In this document: in pieces, positions 5,325-62,468 of the stretch
Numbering within the stretch: position 1 is the stretch's first letter
Layout of the letters: every line of letters starts with the position of its first letter
NCBI GenBank assembly: GCA_003665825.1
Contig: QPFY01000005.1
Location: 930,001-994,000 of the forward strand
Length of the DNA: 64,000 nucleotides
DNA from: Microbotryum silenes-acaulis
Lineage: Eukaryota; Basidiomycota; Microbotryomycetes; Microbotryales; Microbotryaceae
Direction of reading: 5' to 3'
Made by a program: the position numbers and the translations under genes
Notes under the pieces: model-generated
The model's database searches: none
Seen by the model: only the letters and a program-made list of their open reading frames with translations
What the model was told of the DNA's origin: nothing

Positions 5325-6100
5325 ATGGTGTGATTACTCTTGTGCCAAAGTGTGTGTGAGTAATGTAGAAAGGAGGATTTACTCGCAGCCGCGGTCCGGA
5401 TAATCTCTACTAGTTCCGTGCCCCAAGCCAATTGCGCCGCTTCAAACGGTACTTCCTGCGGCTTACCCATTTTTGATTGTGTCTGTGGGCGAAGTCAACT
5501 GCCGATACAGGTAATACAATTTCGACAGCAACATTAATCCTCGTTTGCACGGCTCAGGATGGAGGTCAATTGTGTCGGCTACACGCGTCGTCCGTGGCGG
5601 GGCGGCGCAGACGGCTCGGCTGACGGCAGTTGCGACGCTTTGAGCGCGTCACCCGTGCTCGCGCGAGGCCGCGAGGCGAAAGGGGCGGGACCTCCAGGCG
5701 CTAGGGCGGGCGGGCGTTTGACAAATGGCGTGCTCATCGCGACCAAATTTTGCTGGAGACGCTCGCTGGGCGCCCATCGCGCCTGGGGTTTTGGATCGAT
5801 CGGTTATGCTTGATCAGCAACCCGCATCATTTCATCGCCTCGCACCCGCCCCACAGACGCGGTTTCTTGTCTTTGTCATACCTCTGTTCAAAGAATCAAT
5901 CACCTAGAGCCACAGCTTTGACCACCTTCTTCGCTTCCTTCACCTACCGCCGTTGCTCTCTGTGCGCCTGCTCTTTCGCCTTCCTCCGTCAGTCGCAGTC
6001 GTCGCCGTCCCCCTGTGATCGTCGCCGAGTCCGAAGTCTTCAAATTTGTGCCACCCGCCGCCGCCCCACTGCCGCACACCCCTCAACCCGCAAGATCACG
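5325..6100. other. Intergenic region upstream of PAPS reductase
   Basis: This 776-bp spacer is GC-rich around 5570-5760 and becomes pyrimidine-rich just before the next ATG at 6101, as expected for a 5' leader. The reading frame is open upstream of 6101 as far as about 5750, so a longer N-terminus is formally possible but lacks domain support. Confidence 0.45.
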
Positions 6101-7256
6101 ATGGCATCCGCATCACCCGTAGCCTCGACCTCGACATCGGTCGCCAGCTCTCCCTCTCTCCGTGCCTCCAGCCCAGCATCGTCCGTTTCGGCCGGATCTG
6201 AGGCGATCGCCCCCTTTGACGTCTCGACGATCGATGTCGTCAACGCGTCCCTCTCCGCCGCCACGCCGCAGGAGATTCTCGCGTGGGCGATCGGTCATTT
6301 GCCGAACCTCTGGCAAACGACCGCCTTCGGTCTGACCGGTCTGGCGGCGACGGACATGATTGCCAAGATCACAAAACGCCAAAAGGCGAGCCAACACCTC
6401 GTTCCCATGATCTTCATCGACACGCTGTACCATTTCGAAGAGACGCTTGCCCTCGCGGACAAGATCGAGCGCAAGTACAAGCTTAAGATGTCGGTCTTCC
6501 GACCACCCGAAGTCGAGACGACGGCCGAGTTCGAGGAGAAGTACGGCCAGGAACTGTGGAAGACCGATGAGGATACTTACGATTACTTGGTCAAGGTGAG
6601 CTTTGCACGACCCAGGGGTCATGCTCGTCTGGCGAGCAGCCCGCGCTGGCGAACCGAAGAATTAGCAAGCTGACATTTTGTGTCCGCATCCCGCTTTGTC
6701 CCACCCTAGGTCGAACCCGCACGACGAGCATACGAGGAGTTGGATGTCAAGGCTGTCATTACCGGTCGACGACGATCCCAAGGTGCGGACCGAGCGACGT
6801 TGCAACCGCTTGAAGTCGATTCGACCGGCTTGATCAAGGTCAACCCCTTGTGCCGATGGGGCTTCAGCGAGGTCAAGGACTACATCGACATGGCCGGCGT
6901 TCCTTACAACCCTCTACTCGACCAGGGCTACAAGTCGGTTGGCGACTGGCACTCGACCAAGATCCCCATCGATGGTGAGGGAGAGCGTGCCGGTCGATGG
7001 TCGGGCAACACCCAAAAAACGGAGTGCGGGCTGCACAAGGACTACTTCAAGATGTGAGACCATCCTGAACTCCCATTAGGATTTATGCAAACTCCAGATG
7101 CTGACATGCAATTTTCTGATTTTTGTGGCGCACCACAGGAAGAAGGCCTATGAGAAGAAGCGACGAGAAGCCGAGTTGGCATCCCAGGACAAGGCCCGAG
7201 GAGAGGACGTTCTTGGCGAGACCTCGGTACAAATGGATCTCTTGGCTCTCAACTAG
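6101..7256 (+). CDS. Phosphoadenosine phosphosulfate (PAPS) reductase
   Basis: Three exons (6101-6595, 6710-7053, 7139-7256) encode 318 aa. After a Ser/Thr-rich, probably disordered start come the PAPS reductase signatures: FGLTGLAATDMIAKI (P-loop-like start of the adenine nucleotide alpha hydrolase fold), PMIFIDTLYHFEET, ITGRRRSQGADR, KVNPLCRWGFSEVKDYI and KTECGLH near the C-terminus, with the catalytic Cys at about 271. Known role: thioredoxin-dependent reduction of PAPS to sulfite and adenosine 3',5'-bisphosphate in sulfate assimilation in the cytosol (yeast MET16). Of the two possible substrates, PAPS is expected because the protein lacks the extra cysteine pairs of bacterial APS reductases. 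A mitochondrial thioredoxin gene lies 6 kb away, but that proximity is probably coincidental. Confidence 0.93.
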
Positions 7257-20215: not shown

Positions 20216-23200
20216 TTAAACGACCCCTGTGGTCCCACCCAGGACACCCCCTACGGCTGGCGCAGCATTGTACGCCCTCATTTCGGAGATCCCGACCCCA
20301 TTTCTCGCCACCGCGGCGCCGGTGATGGTGAAGCGCAACGAACTCGTCGTCTTGCCCGCTCCGAGGTTGATTTGGGTACCGAACGGCGACAGGACGCCAA
20401 CGCGGGCTGTCGAGCCATCTGAGAAGGTCAAGGTGCCGGCTAGGATCGCGTTCAGCAGATTGACGGGAGGGAAAAGGACCACGGTCTTGATGAGGTAGCT
20501 CTGAGGCCAGGTGAGCTGAATCCAAGCCGGTACGGTACCAGTGCCTGTCGACCATTCTTGCGCCGCGTTGCCCGATCCATCGAGCTCGAGACCACCAATA
20601 ATTCCGTCGTTGGCGCCCGACGGCGGAGAGCTGGCACGGAACGACGACGCGGTCGCCGTGACCCCGGGGAGGCGAGCGATGTTGACGTTGGACGGCTGTG
20701 CCGTGCTCAAGCCTGTGGTGGTCGTGGTGGCACTGCTGGCACTGCTGGTGCTGGTGCTGCTCGCCGACGGCGACCTCGTGGACGATTGGGGCGTGGTCGT
20801 CATCGACGGCGAAGACGCCGGGGAAGAGGCGGTGCTCGAGGCGGCGGACGAGGACAAGGAAGACGTAGAGGACGAGGACGAGAAAGACGCGGAGGACAAG
20901 GAGGCGGCAGTGCTTAAAGTAGAGGATGGACCCGTCGTGGTTTGCGGCGCGGTGGTGTTCGACGTAGTCGTTGTGGCCGCAACAACCTGGTATTGATAGC
21001 ATCCACTGCCGATACTGCCCGCGAGAGCAGTGTACGATGCGCACACTCCTGGGACGTAATGAACCCAGGAGGCCTCAGCAATGTACATGTTGCCGGCGTT
21101 GTCGCCGAAGGGGTACACGTCGGTGTGCGTCCAACATTCCTTGGTTCTGTGCGAGGTGGCCCGGAGGCCTACAGATCAGTAAGGGGGGCGACCGATCGGA
21201 GGGCCTCGCATAGGTACGTACAAAGCTTTCCAGTCGAAGGAAGTGCACTGCGTACGGTCGCACCTGAGACCGCACGCGTTCGCTGACAACTCGTTGGTTG
21301 AGGACTGCAAGTCGGCACTTCAGTGGATCAGTATTGGCAGTCTCGACAGACCACCCAGCATCTTCTCGATTACTCCACTTACCGCAGTGCCCGCCGTTAC
21401 TCGGGTACCGTTGTAGGTCGCGTAGCTGCGGAGAGATCCAGTCGGCTGAGGAGAATAGGCTGGCGAGGAACTCGTCGTCGTCTTGGTAGTGGTGGCGGAT
21501 GAAGTCGCGGATGTGGTCGCGGAGGTGATCGACGTCGGAGACGTAATCGTAGTTGATGCCGTCGTCAACGACGACGAAGCTTTGGTGGAAGAGTTCGTCC
21601 CAAGCGTCGAGTTTGATACCGTCGTGTTCGCGCTAGTCGTTGAGTTGGCTAGGGTCGAGTTGGTCAAGGTCGAGTTTATTGACGTCGAATTGGCCAAAGT
21701 CGAGTTGGCGATTGTGGCATTGGGTGAACTCGAATTGACCAAGCTGGTGTTGCCCGAAAGCGTCGAGTTCGCCAGCGTCGAGTTCGCAAGCGTCGAGTTC
21801 GTGCCAGCGCTCGAATTGGTGGTCAGTGTTGAGTTCACTAAAGTCGAGTTGCTCAAGGTCGAATCCGGGATTGTCAAATTGGCGGAGGTTGAATTAGATT
21901 CATTCGTGGAGTTGGAGTTGGAGTTTGCCAGGGTCGAGTTGACCAAGGTGGAATTGGCCAAGGTCGGGTTGGACACAGTCGCGTTCCCCGTCGTCGAGTT
22001 TGTCAAAGTAGAGTTGGCGAGAGTCGAATTGTACACGGTCGAGTTGGCTGAGCTGGCGTTACCGGCGAGCGTCGAATTGTCGAGTGTCGAATTGCCAAGC
22101 GTCGAGTTCGTGACGGTTGAATTGTACGAGGTCGAGTTGGTCAGGCTCGAATTGTCCGCAAGCGTGGAATTAGACAGCGTTGAATCGCCCATGGTCGAAT
22201 TGAGGTCGAATGTCGAGTTCGTCAAAGTCGAGTTGGCCGAAGTCAAATTGCCAAGCGTCGAGTTCGCCAGAGTTGAGTTGTCAAGAGTTGAATTGGCAAG
22301 GGTCGAGTTGGCAAGGGTTGAGTCACTGAACGTCGAGTTACTGAAAGTGGAGTTCGAGAATGTCGAATTGCCTGCAGTCGAATATCACATTGTCAGAGCC
22401 AGTCTCAAACCAGTTTAGAGCGAAGACAGCCGGCGCAGCGACATACCTAAGGTCGAGTTACCAAGCGTCGAATTGCTCAACGTTGAGTTCGCAAGTGTCG
22501 AGTTACTAAGCGTCGAATTCGTCAAAGTTGAATTGGCCAGGGTCGAATTAGTCAGGCTTGCGTTTCCCGCGAGCGTCGAGTCAGTCAGAGTCGAGTTGGC
22601 CACGGTTGAATTGGCCAGGGTCGAGTTGGCCAGGGTCGAGTTGGCCAAGCTCGAGTTGACGTTGACGGCTCCGAGCGCCGAGCTGGTCTCGACGGTGGAA
22701 TTGGTCAACGTCGAGTTGGCGCTGCCGGTCGAATTCGCCGAGGTGTTGACGGGTAGGGCGCCGTAGACCATAATTTCCGCCAACCCGATGTTCGACGACG
22801 AGGGCGAGGCTCCGGTGACGGTCATGGTCAAGACCGATGCAATGATGGGTTGCGCCAGGGCGACAGAGGTAGCCGAGCCGTTGTTGGCGAGCGCGCCGAA
22901 CGACACGACCGCACCAGAACTGAACGTGAGCGTACCAGCCGTGACATGATCGGCGAGATTGGGACGATCGTACAGGACGACCTCGTTGATCTCGACGTTG
23001 GAAGGCCACGTCAGCGTGAGCCAAGCACCAACGGTTTGGTCCTGGGTCGCCCACTCTTGCTGCCAGCTGCCCGAGCCGTCCTCCTTGTAGCCGCTGGCCT
23101 TGCCGTCGTTGGCCTTGTCGGGTCCTTGGCCGGACGCGCCCGAGGACGCGGTCGCGATCGCGTTCAACGCGAGATCCACGCTGGTGTCCGTGGTCAGTGA

Positions 23201-26200
23201 GATGATCGCAGACGTCGAGTTGCTCGTGGTAGCCGTGTTGTTGCTCTGGACATAAGTCGTGTTGTTCATGACGAGGTCGGGGGTTTGCGACTTTGAGTAA
23301 AATACGCCCAGCTCGGCCAATCCGGCCGAGCCGGTAGAGGGCCCGACGCTGGTCACGGTGAAGAGCAAAGACGAGGACTTGACGGCGGTCGTCAAGTTGA
23401 CCACGGTGGCCGAGCCATCGTCATTCAGGCTCGGAATGGTGACGGTGGTGCCGTCGCTGAAGGCGACCGTGCCGCCCGTGATCCAATCGTCGGGATTGGG
23501 ACGATCGTAGAAAACGAGAGAGTCGACCATGTAGTAACTCGACCAGGTGAGGTTGAGCCATGCACCTGTTCCTTCTCCCTGGGTCGTCCATTCGGCGGTC
23601 CAGTTTGATGGGTAGCCCGAGATGACCCCGTCATTCGCCCGGTCTGCGGTCTGCCCGCTGGCTCCCGACGACGCCGAGGCGGAGGCCGTGAGAGCCAGAT
23701 CCGAGTAGGCATCCGACGAACCTACGGTGCCCGAGCTCGTCGTCGTTGTCGACGTCAGCGTCGTGTTGACCGCAGTCGTACCCGACGAGCTTTGCGCTTG
23801 CGAGTAGAATACGCCCAGCTCGGCCAAGCCGACCGAATTCGATGAGGGTCCAGCGCTCGTCACGGTGAAGAGCAGCGTGGTCGTGTTGACTGCCGCGGTG
23901 AGGTTGACCACGGTGGCCGAGCCATCGTCATTCAGGCTCGGAATGGTGACGGTGGTGCCGTCGCTGAAGGCGACCGTGCCGCCCGTGATCCAATCATCGG
24001 GATTGGGACGATCGTAGAAAACGAGAGAGTCGACCATGTAGTAACTCGACCAGGTGAGGCTGAGCCATGCGCCTGTTCCTTCCCCCTGGGTCGCCCATTC
24101 GGCGGTCCAGTTCGATGGGTAGCCCGAGATGACCCCATCATTCGCCCGGTCTGCGGTCTGCCCGCTGGCCCCCGACGACGCCGAGGCGGAGGCCGTGAGA
24201 GCAAGATCAGCGAACGCTCCTGCGGTGGTGGTCGTGGTACCGGACGTGGTATTGGAGGTGGTGTTTGATCCAGTGGGTACGCCCCCGACTTGGCCTTGCG
24301 AGTAAAAGACGGCGAGTTCAGCAAGGCCAACGGATCCCGAAGAAGGGCCCGCGCTGGTCACGGTGAACAGCAACGACGTCGTCGTGACGGCATTGGTCAG
24401 GTTGACGACCGTCGCCGAGCCATCGTTGTTGAGGCTCGGGATTGTGACGGTCGAGCCGTCGTCAAAAGCGAGCGTCCCCCCCGTAATCCAATCACCGAGG
24501 TTAGGGCGATCGTAGAAGACGAGCGAATCGAGCCAAATGCTCTGAGGCCACGTCAGGTTGAGGCAAGCACCAGCGCCTTGGCCCTTGGTAGACCACTCGG
24601 CGGTCCAGTTTGCTGGGTAACCCGAGATGACACCGTCGTTAACGCGGTCCGCCGGTTGTCCGTTCGCTTCCGAAGACGCCGTCGCCTGGGCCAGCAGCGC
24701 GAGATCCGAAAAGGCCGTCGCGCTGATGGTTGTTGCGTTTTCAATGGCTCCGCCAGTATCCTGGCACCCAGAACAAAGGTCACCGAACACCTGGATTTCA
24801 GCTAGACCGACGCTTCCAGTAGCAGCCGACACCGAAGTAAACTTGACGACCAGCGAATTCGTGATGACGGTTTGCGACAACGTGACGAGCGTCGCCGAGC
24901 CATCGTTGGCCAGAGCACCAAAGGAGACGCTCTTGCCATCGGCGAACGTGATCGTGCCACCTTTGGCCCAATCGTTGACGTTGGGTCGATCGTACAAGAC
25001 GATCGAGGTGACACTGTACGTGTCGTTCCAGGTGAGGGAGAACGTCGTGCCCGCTGTGCCACCGTCGGAAACCCACTCCGCCGACGAATTGCCCGGATAG
25101 CCCGAGATAATTCCGTCGATGGCTCGGCCCGGGACCTGGGTCGGGCCAGCATAGCTCGAGGCGGTAGCATTGGCGATGAGGGCGATGTTGGTACCGTTGG
25201 GCATGGTGACGGGCGACTCGGCCGATCCGGTGTACGATTGCTGCGCCAGCGCCGACGTCACGACGTACTGTCGAGCCAGCCAATAGGACTCGCCACGGCC
25301 GGCGCTCGTGCAGGCTGAGTAAGATTGGCATTCACCCGAGTCAAAAGGCGTGTACCGGAAGAACGCGTTCGACTTGGCGACGAACTGTGCAGAGCCCGAG
25401 GTGAGGGTGGGAGCGAAGTTGTTGATCGGGTAGCCCATGTAGCCGGCAAAGTTGGCACTAGGTGCGGTGTTGCCGACCAGGGCCGAGGTGATCCTGGCGG
25501 TTGTAATGTGGTCGGAATGATCGCCAGCATCGTAGTCGCTCAGATAGTCGAGAGTGCGAACGTTCTTGGCCTGGCGAGCCGTCAGGATGTCGCTGATGGC
25601 TTTCTTAAGCGTGGCAAGAGTGAAAGTCGCGCCGCCGTCAACGCTCGAGATGCTGGAAATAGAACCAAAGTAGAGGCCACGAAGCGATTGGTAGCCGTTG
25701 GGGGCATACCCAGTCTGCAGAGCAACACGCAACGCTTTTGGTCAGCTTTCGCCTCCGAAACGCCCTCTATGAAGACCGGCGGCGAAGCGTGAGAGCTTGA
25801 ACTGACCCCATCGACGTTGCCATCAGGCAGCCGGAACCACACACGCTGTACCTGGGGTGCACCGACCAATGTGCGCACTAGCACTGGCTGCCCGCCGAAC
25901 GTGGCAACGAATCTACGGCGCAGAATGAAAAGGTTTTCCGAGCGAATCAGCAACTCTCGACGAGGGCGTGCGCAGTTGAGCGTCTGCATCCCTGCCTTCA
26001 CTCACTCTGTCCAGGTGTCGTCCACGTTAGCCATGTACGAATTTGCGGCTTCATTGCCGCTCTCACGAGCCTTTGCGTACGTCAGTCCCACGCCTAACGT
26101 GGGTTTCAGATGTTCAAGCGGCCACGGCAGCAGCGTCAGTCACGTGCGCGAGCCCGCGCGACCAGACGTCATCCCTGCAGTGGACTTACCCGAATCTCCA

Positions 26201-33531: not shown

Positions 33532-36500
33532 ATGTCGAAGGATTCTTCAGTAGTGTCCCCAAGGGCTTTGAGTCTGGCGGCCGTGTGTCTACAATCGACA
33601 GTGCTGGCCATCGTGTAAGCCCACGCTCTCGGATCGTTCCTGCCCAATGTGCTCGGCCGATGCGAGCGCTGGCTGACGACCCCGAGGGGACTTTGGATGT
33701 AACCTTTGCAGTCTTCATATCTCTCAAGCAAAAGCAAGTCCCGGTGAAAGGTCGTACAAAGCCTCGAGTGCCGTCCTCTTGACAGGTGAGTTGTACGCTC
33801 ATGCGGGCTCGACGATGAGCGAGGCTGGACGATCGCTCCGCGCCGACATTCGCCAGCCGGCGCATCTCCAAGTAATGCGAGGCGTTTCCGGCGTCAATCT
33901 CAGATGTTCCCTGTACTCGCACTGACATGCACCCCGTCCCATCCTATCTTGATGTTTAATTTTTCCAGAACTCGGAAAACTATTGCTCTCCTTGTTGCTG
34001 GCACTGCGGGACGTGTGGAAGGAGCGCGCGACATTGCTGGCGCCTAGACACGCCTTGCCTTCGCCCGAGCTCTATTCGTCGGGCTACGAGAATGGCAAGG
34101 ACAAGTACTCGCTACCACCGGATGCGGCGCCACCAGAGTCTCGTCGGCACACACTCCGGCGACGGAGCTCCGCCATCAGCCTCGACCTGCGAATAGAACA
34201 TAACGAAAAGGTGCGGCGCTTGTCTGGCAAGTCGGCCCTCGCGGCGTTTCAATGGCCTCGCACAATGCTTTCCCCCGTGCCGAATATGAAGGAGTCGCCA
34301 CTGCTGTGTGGTAGTCCCGAGATTGTGAAGAGGCTCAACGACCCGACTTTGTGGACGCGGCGCCGTCGCCTGGGTCTGCGAGCGATGCTCTGGGAGGACA
34401 TCTTTGGTTCCGACTGGTGGAAGATGGGGATTCCCGCAGTGCTCTTTGCGGTGCAGAACAATCTGATGTGAGTCGACAAGATCCTCTCTATTTCGTTCTA
34501 TCTAGACCTATGCAAGGTGTCCTCGAGCTCAACGTTTGTTCTTTGCAGCTACGTCGCCGCTCGTAACCTCTCCATTCCCGTCTTCCAGATCACGTTTCAG
34601 ATCAAGGTGAGGCGCCTAAGATACTGGAAGCGGAGAAAGGAAGCCGAACGAGTATCAGGACATGCTGACGCGTGCTCTTCCACTTTGGTCTGTACAGACT
34701 GTGATCACCGCTTTGTGCGCCGTAGTGATGCTTGGCCGCCGGCTGACGGCCTTGCAGTGGGTCACGTTGATCACACTCGGTGCTGGTGTCGCCTCGATGC
34801 AGCTCGGCGCGATCCATGCCAAGTCCGGCGGCGACCCCGGCCACTCACCCAACGTTTCCGCTGAGGAAGATATGAACCATCTGGCTGGGGTGGGTGCTGT
34901 GCTCGTTTCATGTTTTGCTTCGGCCATCGCCGCAACCTACTTCGAACTCGTCATCAAGAAGCCCGCTGTGGTTCCTCAGATCCGCGAGTACATGATGGTC
35001 GCACCGCCGGATCTCAAGCCAGCGAGTCTTTGGATTCGCAACATCCAGCTGTCATTATTCAGCACCTTGTTCGGCATTGCGGTCGTCCTTGTGCAAGCCA
35101 GCCCAGCCCATTTCGCCTTCCACGGAGGACTTTCGCTCGACTTCAAGGGCACGCTCGATCCCCTCGAGCATTGGTACGATCCGTTCTCACTGGCGGCCGA
35201 GGGGTTCTTTGAAGGTTTCAACTCCGTGACGTGGTTTGTCGTCGCGTTGCAGACCATTGGCGGATTACTTATTGGTAGGTCACCGACTCGCGAGATGCTT
35301 TTCGCGCACTGCGCCTGTTCACCAAGCTCATCCGTGGTGGCGTGTCTGACTCTTCTTCGTAGCCCTCGCGATCAAGTACGCCGACAACGTTGCGAAATCG
35401 TTCGCGCTCTCGGTCTCGATCGTGTTCACCTTCCTGCTCTCGGTGCTCATGTTTGATTTCCAAGTCACACCCTCGACCGCTATCGGTGCCCTCGCTGTGG
35501 TGGGATCAACGATGCTCTTCGAAGTCGACCAGAGCGCACTCAAAGCGGCGATCATGCTCGACGGTCATAAACGAGCTGGCCCGCTCCTCCGCAGATGGCA
35601 TTACGTCTTGTTGGTGGTGCTCGGGACCAGCTTCCTTGCGACGGTCACCCCACTCTCGCGTTTCTCCGTCACCACGGCGGCTTGGGACGCAATCAGCTCG
35701 CACGTCGACCTGTCCGCTTCATCAACGCAGCCGACAATCGCCATCGCCGACATGGCCCACATCAACGCGTATCTTGCGAGGGGCGCTGGTCCTGGCGAAG
35801 GGGAATGCGATTGGGACTTGTCGCCCTTGCGGCTGTCAACACGACAGGCATTCGGGCCCGCGACTGACAAGGGCCTTGCGGCTTCCAATGTTGTGAGTCA
35901 TTAAGGCCTTCAATGGAAAAGCGAACTTTGAAACTGACCTCGTTGAGTGTGACGTGCTACATAGAACTTTCCGTATTACGAGTTCGAGACTGGGCAATAT
36001 TCGCTCGACGACATTCTTGCCACACGCATGACTGACTATGCGCACAACGTCCCGATTCTCGCGTCACCCTCACCAGACTTCATTTTCCTTCCCCTCCTTT
36101 CGCTGTTCTACTCGAATCCGTGGAACTGCAAGTCAAAGTCTCTGCAAGAAGGAATCCGCCAGACGACAGAATACATTCGCGCGATCGTTCACAGCGTCGG
36201 CAACACCGCCTACCCTCGCATCATCTTGCCCATCGCGGGTGTTCGCTCGGACGTCGAGGACAAGCTCTTCACCCCAGAGCTGATGGAAGAGTTCAAGGAT
36301 AGTGTTGTCGTGGTCTCGATTGAATCGGCACCCAAGAGATACGCCGAGGGGCTCAAATATCTGATCGACGTCCCCTACCCGACCTGGTTCCATCTCTCGA
36401 CGACCCGCGCGGGCCGCAAGCCCGGGACCGACGACTACTTCCTGCTTCAGAACCGACCAAACTTCGTCTTTTACGCTGCAGCAGTGTCGCACCCCTGGGG

Positions 36501-37293
36501 CGCCCCCGCGTCCGACCCGTTTAACGGCTTTGCGCTTCGCCAAGTTCTGCAGCGTCAGTTCTCGAACTACGTCGCACTCCCTGCTGAGCAGCAGACATCG
36601 CGCGTCATCTTCGAAGACCTCAAAGTCGACCACGATGGCTCTCAGGACTTCGAGGGCTTCCATAGCTCGATGGCGTCTTCGGTGTTCTGCCCCATGCCCG
36701 CGGGTGACTCACCCACGCGCCGCGCATTGTACGAGGCCGCGCTGCTCGGCTGCATTCCCGTCATCTTCCGCGAGCGCTCGTACGGTCGCTTATTCCCCTC
36801 GTCCCCCGAGATCAACGATCTGTCGCGATGGACCGTCTACGTCGACGAGCACGAGATGATTGAAGGAGTCGGGCAGGGTCTGATTGAGCGCCTCGAAGCG
36901 ATTACCCCGTACGAGATCCAGCGTCTGCAACGCCACCTCGCGTCCATCGCGGCCGGTCTGCAATGGTCGGTCCTTGACGAAGACCAGTGGTACCCACCCG
37001 CGCGGGTCTCCCGTACCAACCCGGGCGTCTACAACCAGACGAGCTTTTACAACCATACCAAAAGCATCGAACAACACAGGAGAGCTTCCCCGGTCATCGA
37101 TGCCTTTTCTCTCCTCGTCAAAGAGCTGGAAGGAATCCGCGATGGCACATGGCGAGCCGGTATCGCCCGGGACTATCGCGTCGGCAAACATTCGAAGCAT
37201 TTCGGAAAGTCTGCAGCGCATCAGCAGCAGCAAACTCAAAAAATGCAGCAGGTCAAGCGCCAAAACACTCGTCGGCGAGCGGAGGAGCCTTGA
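33532..37293 (+). CDS. Fusion protein: nucleotide-sugar transporter + GT47 exostosin domain
   Basis: Seven exons (33532-33614, 33712-33785, 33969-34467, 34549-34606, 34698-35274, 35363-35892, 35965-37293) total 3,150 nt, one open frame of 1,049 aa. Residues about 10-485 are a UDP-sugar transporter of the SLC35A/PF04142 type: ALSLAAVCLQSTVLAIV, LLTELGKLLLSLLLALRD, VLFAVQNNLIYVAARNL, TALCAVVMLGRRLTALQW, ALAIKYADNVAKSFA. A long charged loop (about 65-190) interrupts it. An extra membrane segment (about 510-528, HYVLLVVLGTSFLATVTPL) follows, then a linker, then a GT47 exostosin domain (608-1049) with YYEFETGQYSLDD, PDFIFLPLLSLFYSNPWN and SSVFCPMPAGDSPTRRALYE. The joining intron (35893-35964) has GTGAGT and ATAG and is phase 0. 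With ten transporter helices plus one, the enzyme part would face the Golgi lumen. Two separate genes are unlikely: only about 120 bp lie between the domains, and GT47 homology begins upstream of the first Met. Confidence 0.85.
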
Positions 37294-45318: not shown

Positions 45319-47922
45319 ATGTCGCCCCAAATCTCTGCCCAAGACAATAAGGAGCACTACACAGCGTTGAGTCCTTCCTCCTCCTTCCTTTAGCAGGTCG
45401 GCGTTCCCCGAGCCTGAGCGCCAACGCTGACTGGTTACGGCTTTGTGGGAAATGTGGGGCTGCGTGCTGCTTCGCCTTCCGAACCCTTCTGTGGTGATGA
45501 TGGTAATCCAAGAAGTATCATCCTCGGTGCTGGTGTATCAGGATTGGGTGAGTATTCATTCCATCAGTCACTTCTTCCGTGGTCTTGATGCCTTGAGTGC
45601 TGACGGCGACTCTGTCCCGCACCGGCATGGCTCCCATTCTACTTGCGCGGCCCCAGCTTCCAACATCCAGATTGCTCGACGATTGGGTTTGACCGATGTC
45701 CTCTGCTAGTAAATCACCTTTCTACTCTTGTTATCTCTCTTTGGGATGATTCACTAACGTTTTGACACCTGTTATGCGCAGTGAAAAATCTGGAGACATC
45801 GGCGGCACCTGGAACCACAATCAATACCCCGGAGCCGCTTGCGGTTAGTCGTGCCCCCGATGGCACTCCAAAAATTCAAAAATTCAACCTTGGCTAAGCT
45901 CCACCCGCGATTTTGGGGTGTTCCCTCGTCGTGACGGGGGCTGACAATCTTACCTGACATTTCATAAAACAAACAGACATCCCCATGTCACTCTACTCTT
46001 TCTCGTTCGCTCATCCCCACAAGCTCACGACGCAATGGGCCGGACAACAGGAGATCATGAGGTGTTCGTCCATCAGATTCTCCGTCCCGCGGGGAAAGCC
46101 GCTGAAGTCTACTTCCTGTGAATTTTTACCCCACTTCTAGACTTGCACGAGGTGCAAGAAAAGTTCCAAGTCCACAACATCTGCTTTCACCACGAAGCGA
46201 AGCAGATGCGCTTCTCCCGCGACACCGGTCTGTGGACGCTCGAGCTCAAGGACCTCAAGACGGGCCAGACCAAAACGCGGACCTGCAATATTTTGATCTC
46301 GTGCGTCGGCGGTCTCTCGATCCCCAACGACCCTACCTTCGACACCAAGGACTTCAAAGGTGACGTCATGCATTCGGCGCAGTGGAACCATGACGTCTCG
46401 GTCGTGGACAAGGACGTCGTCGTGGTTGGTAATGGCTGTTCGGCCGCGCAGATCGTCCCCGAGATCGCAGACAAGGTCAAGAGTTTGACGCAGATCGCTC
46501 GATCAAGGCAGTCTATCCTGAGGAGACCGCCCGTGCCCGATGGCGGATGGATGGTCTTCATGCAGAACTACATCCCGGGAGTAAGTTACTCCAGTGTCAC
46601 TCGGTGTCAACGCGACTGGAGCAGAAGTGCGCAGCGTCTGACGCGCATGGTCGCGTTCCCGACCCATGTGAATTGCTTCTTACAGATGTCGTACCTGTTC
46701 CGATTCCTCGTCTTTTTGCTCGGGGAATACGACTTTAAGGGCATGGACCTCATCCGCGGGCAAAAGCTGCGACAGTGGGTCTCCAAGGACCTCACCTCGT
46801 ACATCCGCGAGGTTGCACCTAAAAAGTATTGGGACGTGTTGGAACCCAATTTCGAGGTCATGGCCAAGCGTCGTGTGTTTGATGCAGGCTATTATAAGGC
46901 CTTGCATAACCCCAAGGTCGACCTGATCAGCGACGATGCGTTGGAGACGGTCAAGGGCGACACGGTCACGACGAGAGAGGGGCGGAAGCTCAAGGCCGAC
47001 GTGATCGTTCTTTGCACGGGTTTCAAGATTCAAGAGTGTACGTCCACTTGCCAATATAAAATTCTGCTCTTATTTTGTTGATAATCACCCTGCATCCCTG
47101 GCGTAGTCTTGTTCCCCCTCAAGATCGCCAACGACAAGGGCGAAGATCTTGCAACCGTTTTGGGCTCAAGCAACGCCAGCAACTACCTCGGAACACTCGT
47201 GGCTGGCTTTCCCAATTATTTCTGGATCATGGGTCCCAACACGGCGTAAGGAAATATCCCATGTTCCGCCAACCCCTCGAGCCATGCGACATTCGGACCT
47301 GGATCCTAATGCCTTCGATTGCCTTTCCGCAGCACCGGTCATTCGAGCGTCATTTTCACGAGTGAATGCCAGATCGGGTAAGCCAATTGACCCAACAGTC
47401 CGATGTGCTCTCTGGCCGCTACGCGCGCTGACACCGAATGTCGTACTACGCTCCTTCAGCATGATGATCAAGCTCATCAAGCCGATCCTCAAGAAACTTG
47501 AGCAAAACCGAGACGCATCCCCTGGACCGAGCGTTGAAGTGTCGAAGCAAGCACAAGATGCGTACATGGGCAAGGTACGAGCGGAGATGAAGAAGAAGGT
47601 CGGTCCTAAACCTTGCCGTGTTAGAGTTCAAGTCGAGGTGAGTGGTGATCTGACACACGCTCGCGCCCCGTCTTCATTCAGGTCTGGGAGAAGGACGGCG
47701 GTGTGAGTTGGTATGTCAACAAGGAGACGGGTCTCTGCACGACACTCTACCCATGGCCAGTCACCCAAGCTGTATCAGACTCGCAAGGAGAACCCCACCG
47801 GGGTAGACAGCACAAGAATGCTAACACGCTGGCGCCTCCTGATCGATTTCAGGTCGCAAGTCCATTTCTGGCGCAACACCGCCTGGCTCAGCATGAAGGA
47901 CTTCATCTACTCCAGCTGCTAA
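45319..47922 (+). CDS. Flavin-dependent monooxygenase, Baeyer-Villiger (type I) family
   Basis: Twelve exons fit best (45319-45365, 45513-45547, 45657-45708, 45782-45843, 45977-46063, 46141-46580, 46686-47037, 47107-47245, 47334-47378, 47460-47637, 47682-47782, 47853-47922), 535 aa. Seen: FAD Rossmann SIILGAGVSGLG (about 17-28), EKSGDIGGTWNHNQYPGAACD, the BVMO fingerprint FKGDVMHSAQW (about 166-176, FxGxxxHxxxW), NADPH Rossmann VVVVGNGCSAAQI (about 187-199), and IMGPNTATGHSSVIF. Family role: NADPH-dependent oxygen insertion into ketones or oxidation of soft nucleophiles; substrate unknown. The intron at 46581-46685 (105 nt) is open and in frame, so retention would still be translatable. The last intron needs a GCAAGG donor to keep SQVHFWRNTAWLSMKDF in frame; an alternative GTAGAC donor at 47809-47814 is possible, so the last 40 residues are less certain. 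Confidence 0.85.
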
Positions 47923-61100: not shown

Positions 61101-62468
61101 GTGAAGACCGCTCTTCTGGAGGTAGTCAAAGATGTAAGAGCTGCGCGGAAAAGGGGTACAATGTCAGCCAGGATGAAGACGTAGAACGGGTGAGCGGCCG
61201 AGACCCGGAGGCAAGGGAACGCACTGGAAAATGGGCCGTAGATCGCCAGAGCCTAATGGGGCAGATTGTTGACCCTGGGCTTGAGCTTGCTCTGAGCTCG
61301 GGTGCGAGTTGAGATGGTGGGGCTGGGACGGCGGTTGAGCCTGGGGTGGTGGCCGCGGTGATACGACGAGACTGGCCGATCGTGATGTTGCGGCCAGTCG
61401 CCCGTCCCGCTCGGTAACATAACTGTTGTCGTGATACCGCCTATCTACCGGAGAGACCGGCCGGCCCCAAGACTGAGGACCCGCCGCAGAACCAGGCTGC
61501 AGCCGTTGTGGTTGTGCTTGTTGCGGCTGCTGGACTGGCTGCTGCTGCTGCGGAGGCTGATGGTAAGACGCATAGTGCGGCGACGAGGGCGGTTGGAACT
61601 GTTGTTGATGCTCGTGCTGAATCTGATGGTACTGCTGCTTAGCTGGGGTAGGCGAGGCACGCGTCGCGTAGGACGATGGGCCAGCTGCGGCGGAGGGACT
61701 GTTCGGGCATGATTGACCCGCTGGGTGTAGGTGAGTTTGAGGGTGCTGCTGCTGTTGTTGTTGTTGCTGTTGCAGCTGCATCTGAGAACCATTGACCATG
61801 GCGACACGTTGGAACGAAGGATGGACCATCACCGGACTGCTGTGGAGCGAGCGTGCATCACCCGGTCCGTACGAGCCATGTGGTGGGGGTCCAATGCCGT
61901 TGCTGCTCGACGCCTGAGCCCGAGCCGGAACGGCAGTCGAGGGTGACACGAAGGCGGGCAGACTCGAGATTCGCTGTTGATGCAACTGCTGCTGCTGCTG
62001 CTGCGCATGGTGTTGTTGTTGCTGTTGCTGTTGTTGTTGCTGTTGTTGTTGCTGTTGTTGCTGTTGTTGCTGTTGTTGCTGCTGCTGCATCGAGTGATGA
62101 GGATGGTTGGCATGCCCCTGATGTGGTGGTGTGTACATGCGTGGATGAATCATCGATGGCCCTCCTGGCACGGGCACTTGTGGCTGGCCGCCGGTCGTCG
62201 CGTAGCTGCTAGTCGAGATTGGCGCAGAGCCGGGGGGACCAGCCGGTGCCACGCTCGAGCCGTACGGTTGCGGTATTTGGTAGGCACCTCGGGGGTGGTG
62301 CTGAAGATGCTGGGGGTGCTGAGCGTGCTGCGGATGTTGTTGTTGTTGCTGCTGCTGCGACGACAGCTGAGGCGGTTGCGACGACTGCAGGTGCAATTGC
62401 AGCTGGCTGGGTCGCAGCGGTCCTGAACCCTGCGGCGACGGATCCGAGGCCGTGTCCTCGCGATACAT
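58129..62468 (-). CDS. Glutamine-rich LisH/LUFS-type transcriptional regulator (Flo8/Som1/SSDP-like)
   Basis: Five exons (62468-61225, 61140-60901, 60831-60702, 60611-60142, 60064-58129) give 1,339 aa. A Gln/His/Pro-rich region of about 414 aa, with a poly-Q run of about 30 encoded near 62000-62090, precedes a LisH motif (SYIFDYLQKSGLHTAAHAFL, about 416-435). Then SPAGFLFEWWTIFYEVFRQR (about 492-511) matches the F(L)xEWWxxFWxxF box next to the LisH in Flo8, Som1 and SSDP/SSBP proteins. The C-terminal 800 aa are Pro/Ser/Gln-rich, with an NLS-like KRKREV and an acidic end (DEIDALF...FDGFESFDL). Known role of the family: nuclear cofactors controlling filamentous growth or LIM-HD/LDB complexes. 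The long Q-rich segment in front of the LisH is unusual, since LisH is normally N-terminal. Confidence 0.85.

Follow-up and report, generated by a model that had tools for sequence, protein, structure and literature searches.

The window analysed here, a 64,000-nucleotide (nt) stretch of the genome of Microbotryum silenes-acaulis (C5:930001-994000, in a genome of 29.85 Mb), contains a gene in which a nucleotide-sugar transporter of the SLC35A type is joined head to tail to a GT47 exostosin glycosyltransferase. That this gene fusion is real is practically certain. The fused frame, its conservation, the folds of the two domains, the residues of the transporter pocket and a topology signal are shown by sequence comparison and prediction. 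The best reading, and a reasonably probable one, is that a uridine diphosphate (UDP)-sugar would be imported and used within one chain. If such a machine exists it would be, going by the literature found, the first covalent nucleotide-sugar transporter-glycosyltransferase pair described.

Re-splicing of the seven exons (Table 1) gives a single frame of 3,150 nt including the stop codon, which specifies 1,049 amino acids, and all six introns have GT-AG ends. The original prediction, a reading of the window's letters alone, had proposed this frame, the phase 0 junction intron with consensus ends and the presence of two domains in one chain, and on each of these points it was right. Both domains are recognized by Pfam: PF04142 (Nuc_sug_transp) at residues 192-483 (E-value 6e-66, 223 bits against a curated cut-off of 27) and PF03016 (Exostosin_GT47) at residues 732-905 (E-value 1e-15, 57.8 bits against a cut-off of 33.4). 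The gene model of Microbotryum lychnidis-dioicae likewise encodes 1,049 amino acids, and the gene set of that species is reported to have been built with strand-specific RNA sequencing and PASA (PMC4469406), which speaks indirectly for a single transcript; the gene, MVLG_01173, does not occur in the main text of that paper. The junction intron has a length that is a multiple of three and contains an in-frame stop, and its retention would leave the transporter without the enzyme.

GT47 homology had been thought to begin at the junction intron, and in this respect the original prediction was wrong. In the predicted structure an EXT1/EXT2/EXTL3-like GT-B exostosin fold spans approximately residues 547-1007 and sets in at ~547-550, some 57 residues ahead of the junction. 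Four residues that are invariant in an alignment of 30 rows (P554, C579, R587 and G595) are encoded in exon 6, as are the anchor helix and the first strand, predicted at 556-558 within PTIAIAD; P610 and L621 are invariant on the exon 7 side of the junction. Past the junction no methionine occurs before residue 22 of exon 7, a position within the conserved domain and without an anchor; a GT47 enzyme starting from its own methionine in exon 7 was rejected, as such a start would leave out the anchor along with the beginning of the fold. Seven further proteins read through the junction in one frame (P0028, P0029, P0031, P0032, P0043, P0046 and P0047), as judged from profile ranges for five and from the 30-row alignment for two. 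In P0028 and P0029, each either a raw open reading frame (ORF) or a spliced model, the frame extends as far as the GT47 end, and the more distant P0047 (44%) is continuous over the junction. P0031, P0032, P0043 and P0046 are matched from the transporter to the middle of the GT47 domain and then, or earlier, run into unrelated residues, tails that would be explained by raw ORFs entering introns. P0042 has ~20 extra residues at the junction, a putative intron read through at that point. Some database models of orthologues contain errors, with extra segments in P0004 and P0005 and an unrelated front end of ~330 residues in P0025. The match of P0045 (318 amino acids) begins at the GT47 start, and the hydrophobic region ahead of it may derive from the last part of a transporter; the protein has no Pfam match at E-values up to 5.

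A whole-chain query was run against 5.8 billion proteins, with scoring limited to the 8,000 candidates sharing the most words per search. Both domains are present in 29 of 31 matches (P0002-P0030) according to precomputed Pfam assignments, with query coverage of 76-100% and identity of 40-98%; the remaining matches, P0031 and P0032, are fragments that bear a label for the transporter domain only. When 26 members were rescanned, PF03016, and with it the pair of domains, was found in every one. The alternative outcome envisaged beforehand, that relatives would always encode the halves as two separate genes, is therefore contradicted, and no split orthologue pair was seen among the relatives found. 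The protein is 98% identical to that of Microbotryum saponariae and 97% identical to that of M. lychnidis-dioicae, and fused proteins occur in Microbotryum, Rhodotorula, Rhodosporidiobolus, Sporobolomyces, Phenoliferia, Pseudohyphozyma and Meredithblackwellia, as well as in two Microbotryomycetes sp. strains. All seven genera belong to the class Microbotryomycetes (Microbotryales, Sporidiobolales, Kriegeriales and one family of uncertain order), Rhodotorula being placed through R. toruloides. Among the 8,000 candidates scored, no further named species with the fusion came from a profile search, and no fusion was found in Leucosporidium, where the search gave just a distant GT47 protein (P0044, 29%). 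The nearest named unfused transporters among the matches listed are those of Amanita and Leucocoprinus (35-36%).

Conservation differs along the chain. Mean identity to the window protein over the 24 more distant rows (Microbotryum rows and P0030 left out) is 0.67 in the transporter core, compared with 0.59 in the GT47 core; flanking the junction it is 0.39 (residues 551-607) and 0.59 (608-660), and it is just 0.28 in the link that precedes the anchor (484-509). Distances of the two halves correlate across 25 fused proteins (r 0.80, Mantel p 0.0005), as expected from joint inheritance, and this correlation is by itself no sign of functional coupling.

The transporter half fits the SLC35 fold, with ten helices and both termini on the cytosolic side, and TIGR00803 (NCBIfam), scored on the 98% identical orthologue P0002, gives 121.5 bits against a cut-off of 55.85. 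Hydropathy places the first two helices before residue 70, and a loop of ~130 residues separates this pair from the others. Eleven of 13 pocket residues of SLC35A2 are identical (Q215, N216, Y220, K238, T242, S313, N353, Q423, K442 and, in helix 2, E53 and K56, whose placement rests on a weak alignment stretch of 2.4 bits); positions were taken from an alignment to 6oh2 and the SLC35A2 residue list in PMC8411240, with N353 and S357 placed via the LW-x-RN-IQ motif. Since the pocket matches SLC35A2, Q423 is invariant in all 30 rows, position 357 is Ser and not the Tyr of the cytidine monophosphate (CMP) transporter, and A431 matches a position at which Ala is given for both UDP-sugar transporters (PMC6508934), the pocket residues point to a transporter of the UDP-sugar type. 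They are kept with few exceptions in members other than P0030, and the SLC35A-type assignment of the original prediction holds. Within the long cytosolic loop lies an LRRRSS motif (residues 113-123, window 34148-34180), a candidate kinase or sorting site, whose positions are kept in 27-29 of the 30 fused proteins.

The exostosin domain of the original prediction is likewise upheld by the Pfam match and the EXT-like fold. Nine of its residues (D855, S856, P857, R860, E864, G869, C870, I871 and P872) do not vary across the 30 rows, and a GT64 domain is absent from the Pfam matches of the protein. In a structure prediction of the full chain (predicted template modelling score, pTM, 0.47) the relative placement of the halves is too uncertain to use. 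Family-mean hydropathy gives, after the ten transporter helices, an eleventh at residues 510-528, as had been predicted; a weak twelfth peak at 635-653 (mean 1.0) was set aside as it falls within the GT47 domain. Lysine and arginine residues near the membrane are more numerous in loops 2, 4, 6, 8 and 10 (means 5.4, 2.0, 5.1, 2.0 and 5.7) than in loops 1, 3, 5, 7 and 9 (1.7, 1.0, 1.5, 0.8 and 0.3), and average 2.6 past helix 11. Because of this bias the even loops are assigned to the cytosol, and a luminal location of the GT47 part, the arrangement originally proposed, is supported. GT47-only proteins of Sporobolomyces carry a helix that aligns with helix 11 and is mostly preceded by RRW or a similar basic motif, and helix 11 therefore looks like the enzyme's own anchor. 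The C-terminus of the transporter and the N-terminus of a type II enzyme are both cytosolic, so that a head-to-tail join preserves both topologies and works from the outset.

In the proposed mechanism, a membrane protein of 1,049 residues would reside most likely in the Golgi, where its ten helices would act as an SLC35A-type antiporter bringing UDP-sugar into the lumen in exchange for uridine monophosphate (UMP). The eleventh helix, corresponding to the signal anchor in GT47-only relatives, would cross the membrane and thus place the GT47 enzyme in the lumen, where the UDP-sugar emerges. There the enzyme would add the sugar to a glycan of the cell wall or of a glycoprotein, and the UDP product, once converted to UMP, would be the exchange substrate of the transporter. 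The benefit would be a local supply at a fixed 1:1 ratio and not a sealed tunnel, with a direct hand-over of the sugar from transporter to enzyme, the channelling put forward in the original prediction, being possible. A stronger version, to be advanced only tentatively, is that of a class-wide single-chain import-and-transfer machine in which the UDP-sugar would be passed preferentially to the chain's own GT47 domain and the nucleotide product taken back, giving a private supply for one glycan.

Several observations weigh against import and use within one chain. On the transporter side, the two remaining pocket positions differ from SLC35A2 (S357 for G239, I219 for Q129), and further PF04142 loci lie on C11, C15, C13 and, twice, C1 of the host genome, so that free transporters elsewhere could supply the lumen. 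P0030 (Rhodotorula dairenensis) has the pocket substitutions N353C, K238R, Q215E and S313G with the listed GT47 residues intact, and transport may therefore be dispensable or lost in that lineage. P0043 appears by eye to be a near relative of P0030. Positive charge is sparse in the N-terminal segment (mean lysine plus arginine 1.1), and the topology call leans on the later loops. On the enzyme side, the sequence likeness of the GT47 half to EXT is weak (E-value 0.05 in a PDB sequence search), and seven named GT47-only proteins of comparable similarity (41-49%) were found, all from Sporobolomyces: P0033, P0034 and P0036-P0040.

The other transporter loci and the free GT47 copies, together with the position of the enzyme in the open lumen, fit an explanation in which the halves are joined yet independent: the transporter would feed the whole lumen and the enzyme draw on a common pool, so that being joined would settle only location and stoichiometry, or else the join would be a neutral accident that has persisted. 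This seems rather unlikely, as all 29 proteins with both domains retain the fusion, across at least three orders and with no split orthologue pair seen; the correlated divergence of the halves does not count against it. It is improbable that the main role of the transporter half is to anchor the GT47 enzyme in the Golgi or to direct its sorting, transport itself being weak or lost. The substitutions in P0030 and the long cytosolic loop with its kept LRRRSS positions would suit such a role, but the pocket is otherwise kept and the transporter core is conserved above the GT47 core, which is unexpected for a mere anchor. That two adjacent genes were merged by hand-splicing or by gene predictors can be dismissed as scarcely credible: the junction is an intron in Microbotryum and database models do contain errors, but in other species ORFs span the junction in one frame, the GT47 fold begins ahead of the intron, and the first methionine beyond it comes too late.

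The GT47-only proteins also bear on the history of the fusion. For five of the seven, the locus tag lies 1-5 away from the tag of the strain's own fused gene and the longest contigs are equal in size (GT47-only/fused pairs P0033/P0019, P0034/P0013, P0036/P0021, P0037/P0017 and P0040/P0022); the contig of P0038 differs in size from that of the fused P0020, and S. carnicolor (P0039) has no fused protein among the matches listed. The partial pieces P0035 and P0041 may belong to fused genes. GT47 trees of 34, 33 and 32 rows were built with P0044 as outgroup, leaving out fused rows P0004, P0007, P0008, P0010 and P0011, partial or raw rows P0031, P0032, P0041-P0043 and P0045-P0047, and transporter-only rows P0048-P0050. 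The fused and GT47-only labels switch at least two times on well-supported branches, with P0033 nested among fused Sporobolomyces proteins and the other six GT47-only proteins forming their own branch alongside. Without P0035, possibly a piece of a fused gene, the data reject both a single clade of all fused rows (p 5e-5) and a single clade of all GT47-only rows (p 2e-5), and a branch with support 91/86 (not starred) has all Sporobolomyces rows, fused and GT47-only together, on one side. The outgroup branch is very long, which makes the root weak, and the P0030 branch is also long. Because of the label changes and the rejection of both constraints, in this sample the fused state appears to be the older one, and the free GT47 copies seem to have been released later, probably twice, barring gene conversion or a wrong root. 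The Sporobolomyces neighbours were considered as unfused ancestors, but the trees group them with the fused Sporobolomyces proteins instead.

Compared with known systems, the fusion differs from SLC35A1, SLC35A2 and SLC35A3 (PF04142, TIGR00803) in its long loop between helices 2 and 3 with LRRRSS, in having Ser and Ile in place of Gly239 and Gln129 of SLC35A2, and in a C-terminus that continues into an enzyme. With the GT47 exostosins (EXT1, EXT2, EXTL3, and plant and fungal GT47 proteins) it shares the GT-B exostosin fold on the luminal side past a membrane anchor and the G-D-S-P..R...E....GCIP core, but their anchor is a free type II anchor whereas that of the fusion is helix 11 of a longer chain; it is distant from the EXT proteins in sequence and has no GT64 domain among its Pfam matches. 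The Sporobolomyces GT47-only proteins have the same GT47 domain and stem, and the basic residue or residues followed by the anchor helix; they lack the transporter domain and appear to be derived from the fused form. For mammalian SLC35A2 and SLC35A3, complexes with galactosyl- and N-acetylglucosaminyl (GlcNAc)-transferases in the Golgi membrane have been reported (PMC9368800, PMC6453868), a similar physical association of transporter and transferase, but one of separate, non-covalently bound chains, whereas the fusion, known here from sequence, is one covalent chain. No description of a covalent nucleotide-sugar transporter-glycosyltransferase pair was found in the titles and abstract openings of the papers listed. 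The original statement that no protein of this architecture has been described thus stands for the papers searched but not for databases, which hold many members, and the entry for P0024 (Pseudohyphozyma) is named for both halves, so that annotation has recorded the architecture.

Table 1. Exons and junction intron of the fused gene, in window coordinates
Feature	Position	Strand	Content
Exon 1	33532..33614	+	Start codon and most of transporter helix 1, residues 1-28; GT donor at 33615; collinear with P0002/P0003
Exon 2	33712..33785	+	End of helix 1, start of helix 2; from spliced frame and alignment
Exon 3	33969..34467	+	Remainder of helix 2 (pocket E53, K56), long cytosolic loop with LRRRSS, helix 3 (Q215, N216)
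Exon 4	34549..34606	+	Residues 219-238; pocket positions I219, Y220, K238
Exon 5	34698..35274	+	Helices 4-8; pocket T242, S313, N353, S357, Q423; PF04142
Exon 6	35363..35892	+	Last part of helix 8; helices 9 and 10 (A431, K442); link on the cytosolic side; helix 11 (510-528, GT47 anchor); stem; beginning of GT47 fold
Junction intron	35893..35964	+	72 nt, phase 0, GTGAGT...TACATAG; inside GT47 domain; flanked on either side by residues conserved across 30 aligned proteins
Exon 7	35965..37293	+	Remaining GT47 exostosin domain and stop codon; PF03016 at residues 732-905

Elsewhere in the window, a large ORF at 20219-25741 on the minus strand contains five DUF7402 stretches and an F5/8 type C domain; past it lie 15-base-pair tandem repeats encoding NSTxx pentapeptides (N-glycosylation sequons) and then another DUF7402 ORF. 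On the plus strand are a 3′-phosphoadenosine-5′-phosphosulfate (PAPS) reductase-like ORF (5705-6670) and an ornithine/lysine monooxygenase-like ORF of the siderophore type (46122-47078). A CTG/CTGTTG repeat array of ~34 three-nucleotide units occupies 61986-62088.

Functional coupling of mammalian transporters and transferases is reported as possible (PMC9368800, PMC6453868). Such coupling is hard to test in the shifting mammalian complexes, and a natural covalent pair makes the question testable by cutting the link. The sole fungal GT47 enzyme reported by 2021 is from Cryptococcus neoformans (PMC8355462), and in a kingdom with one reported GT47 enzyme the attached transporter suggests the donor class of the enzyme to which it is joined. 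For engineering, the fusion is a ready-made template for combining supply and transfer in one chain.
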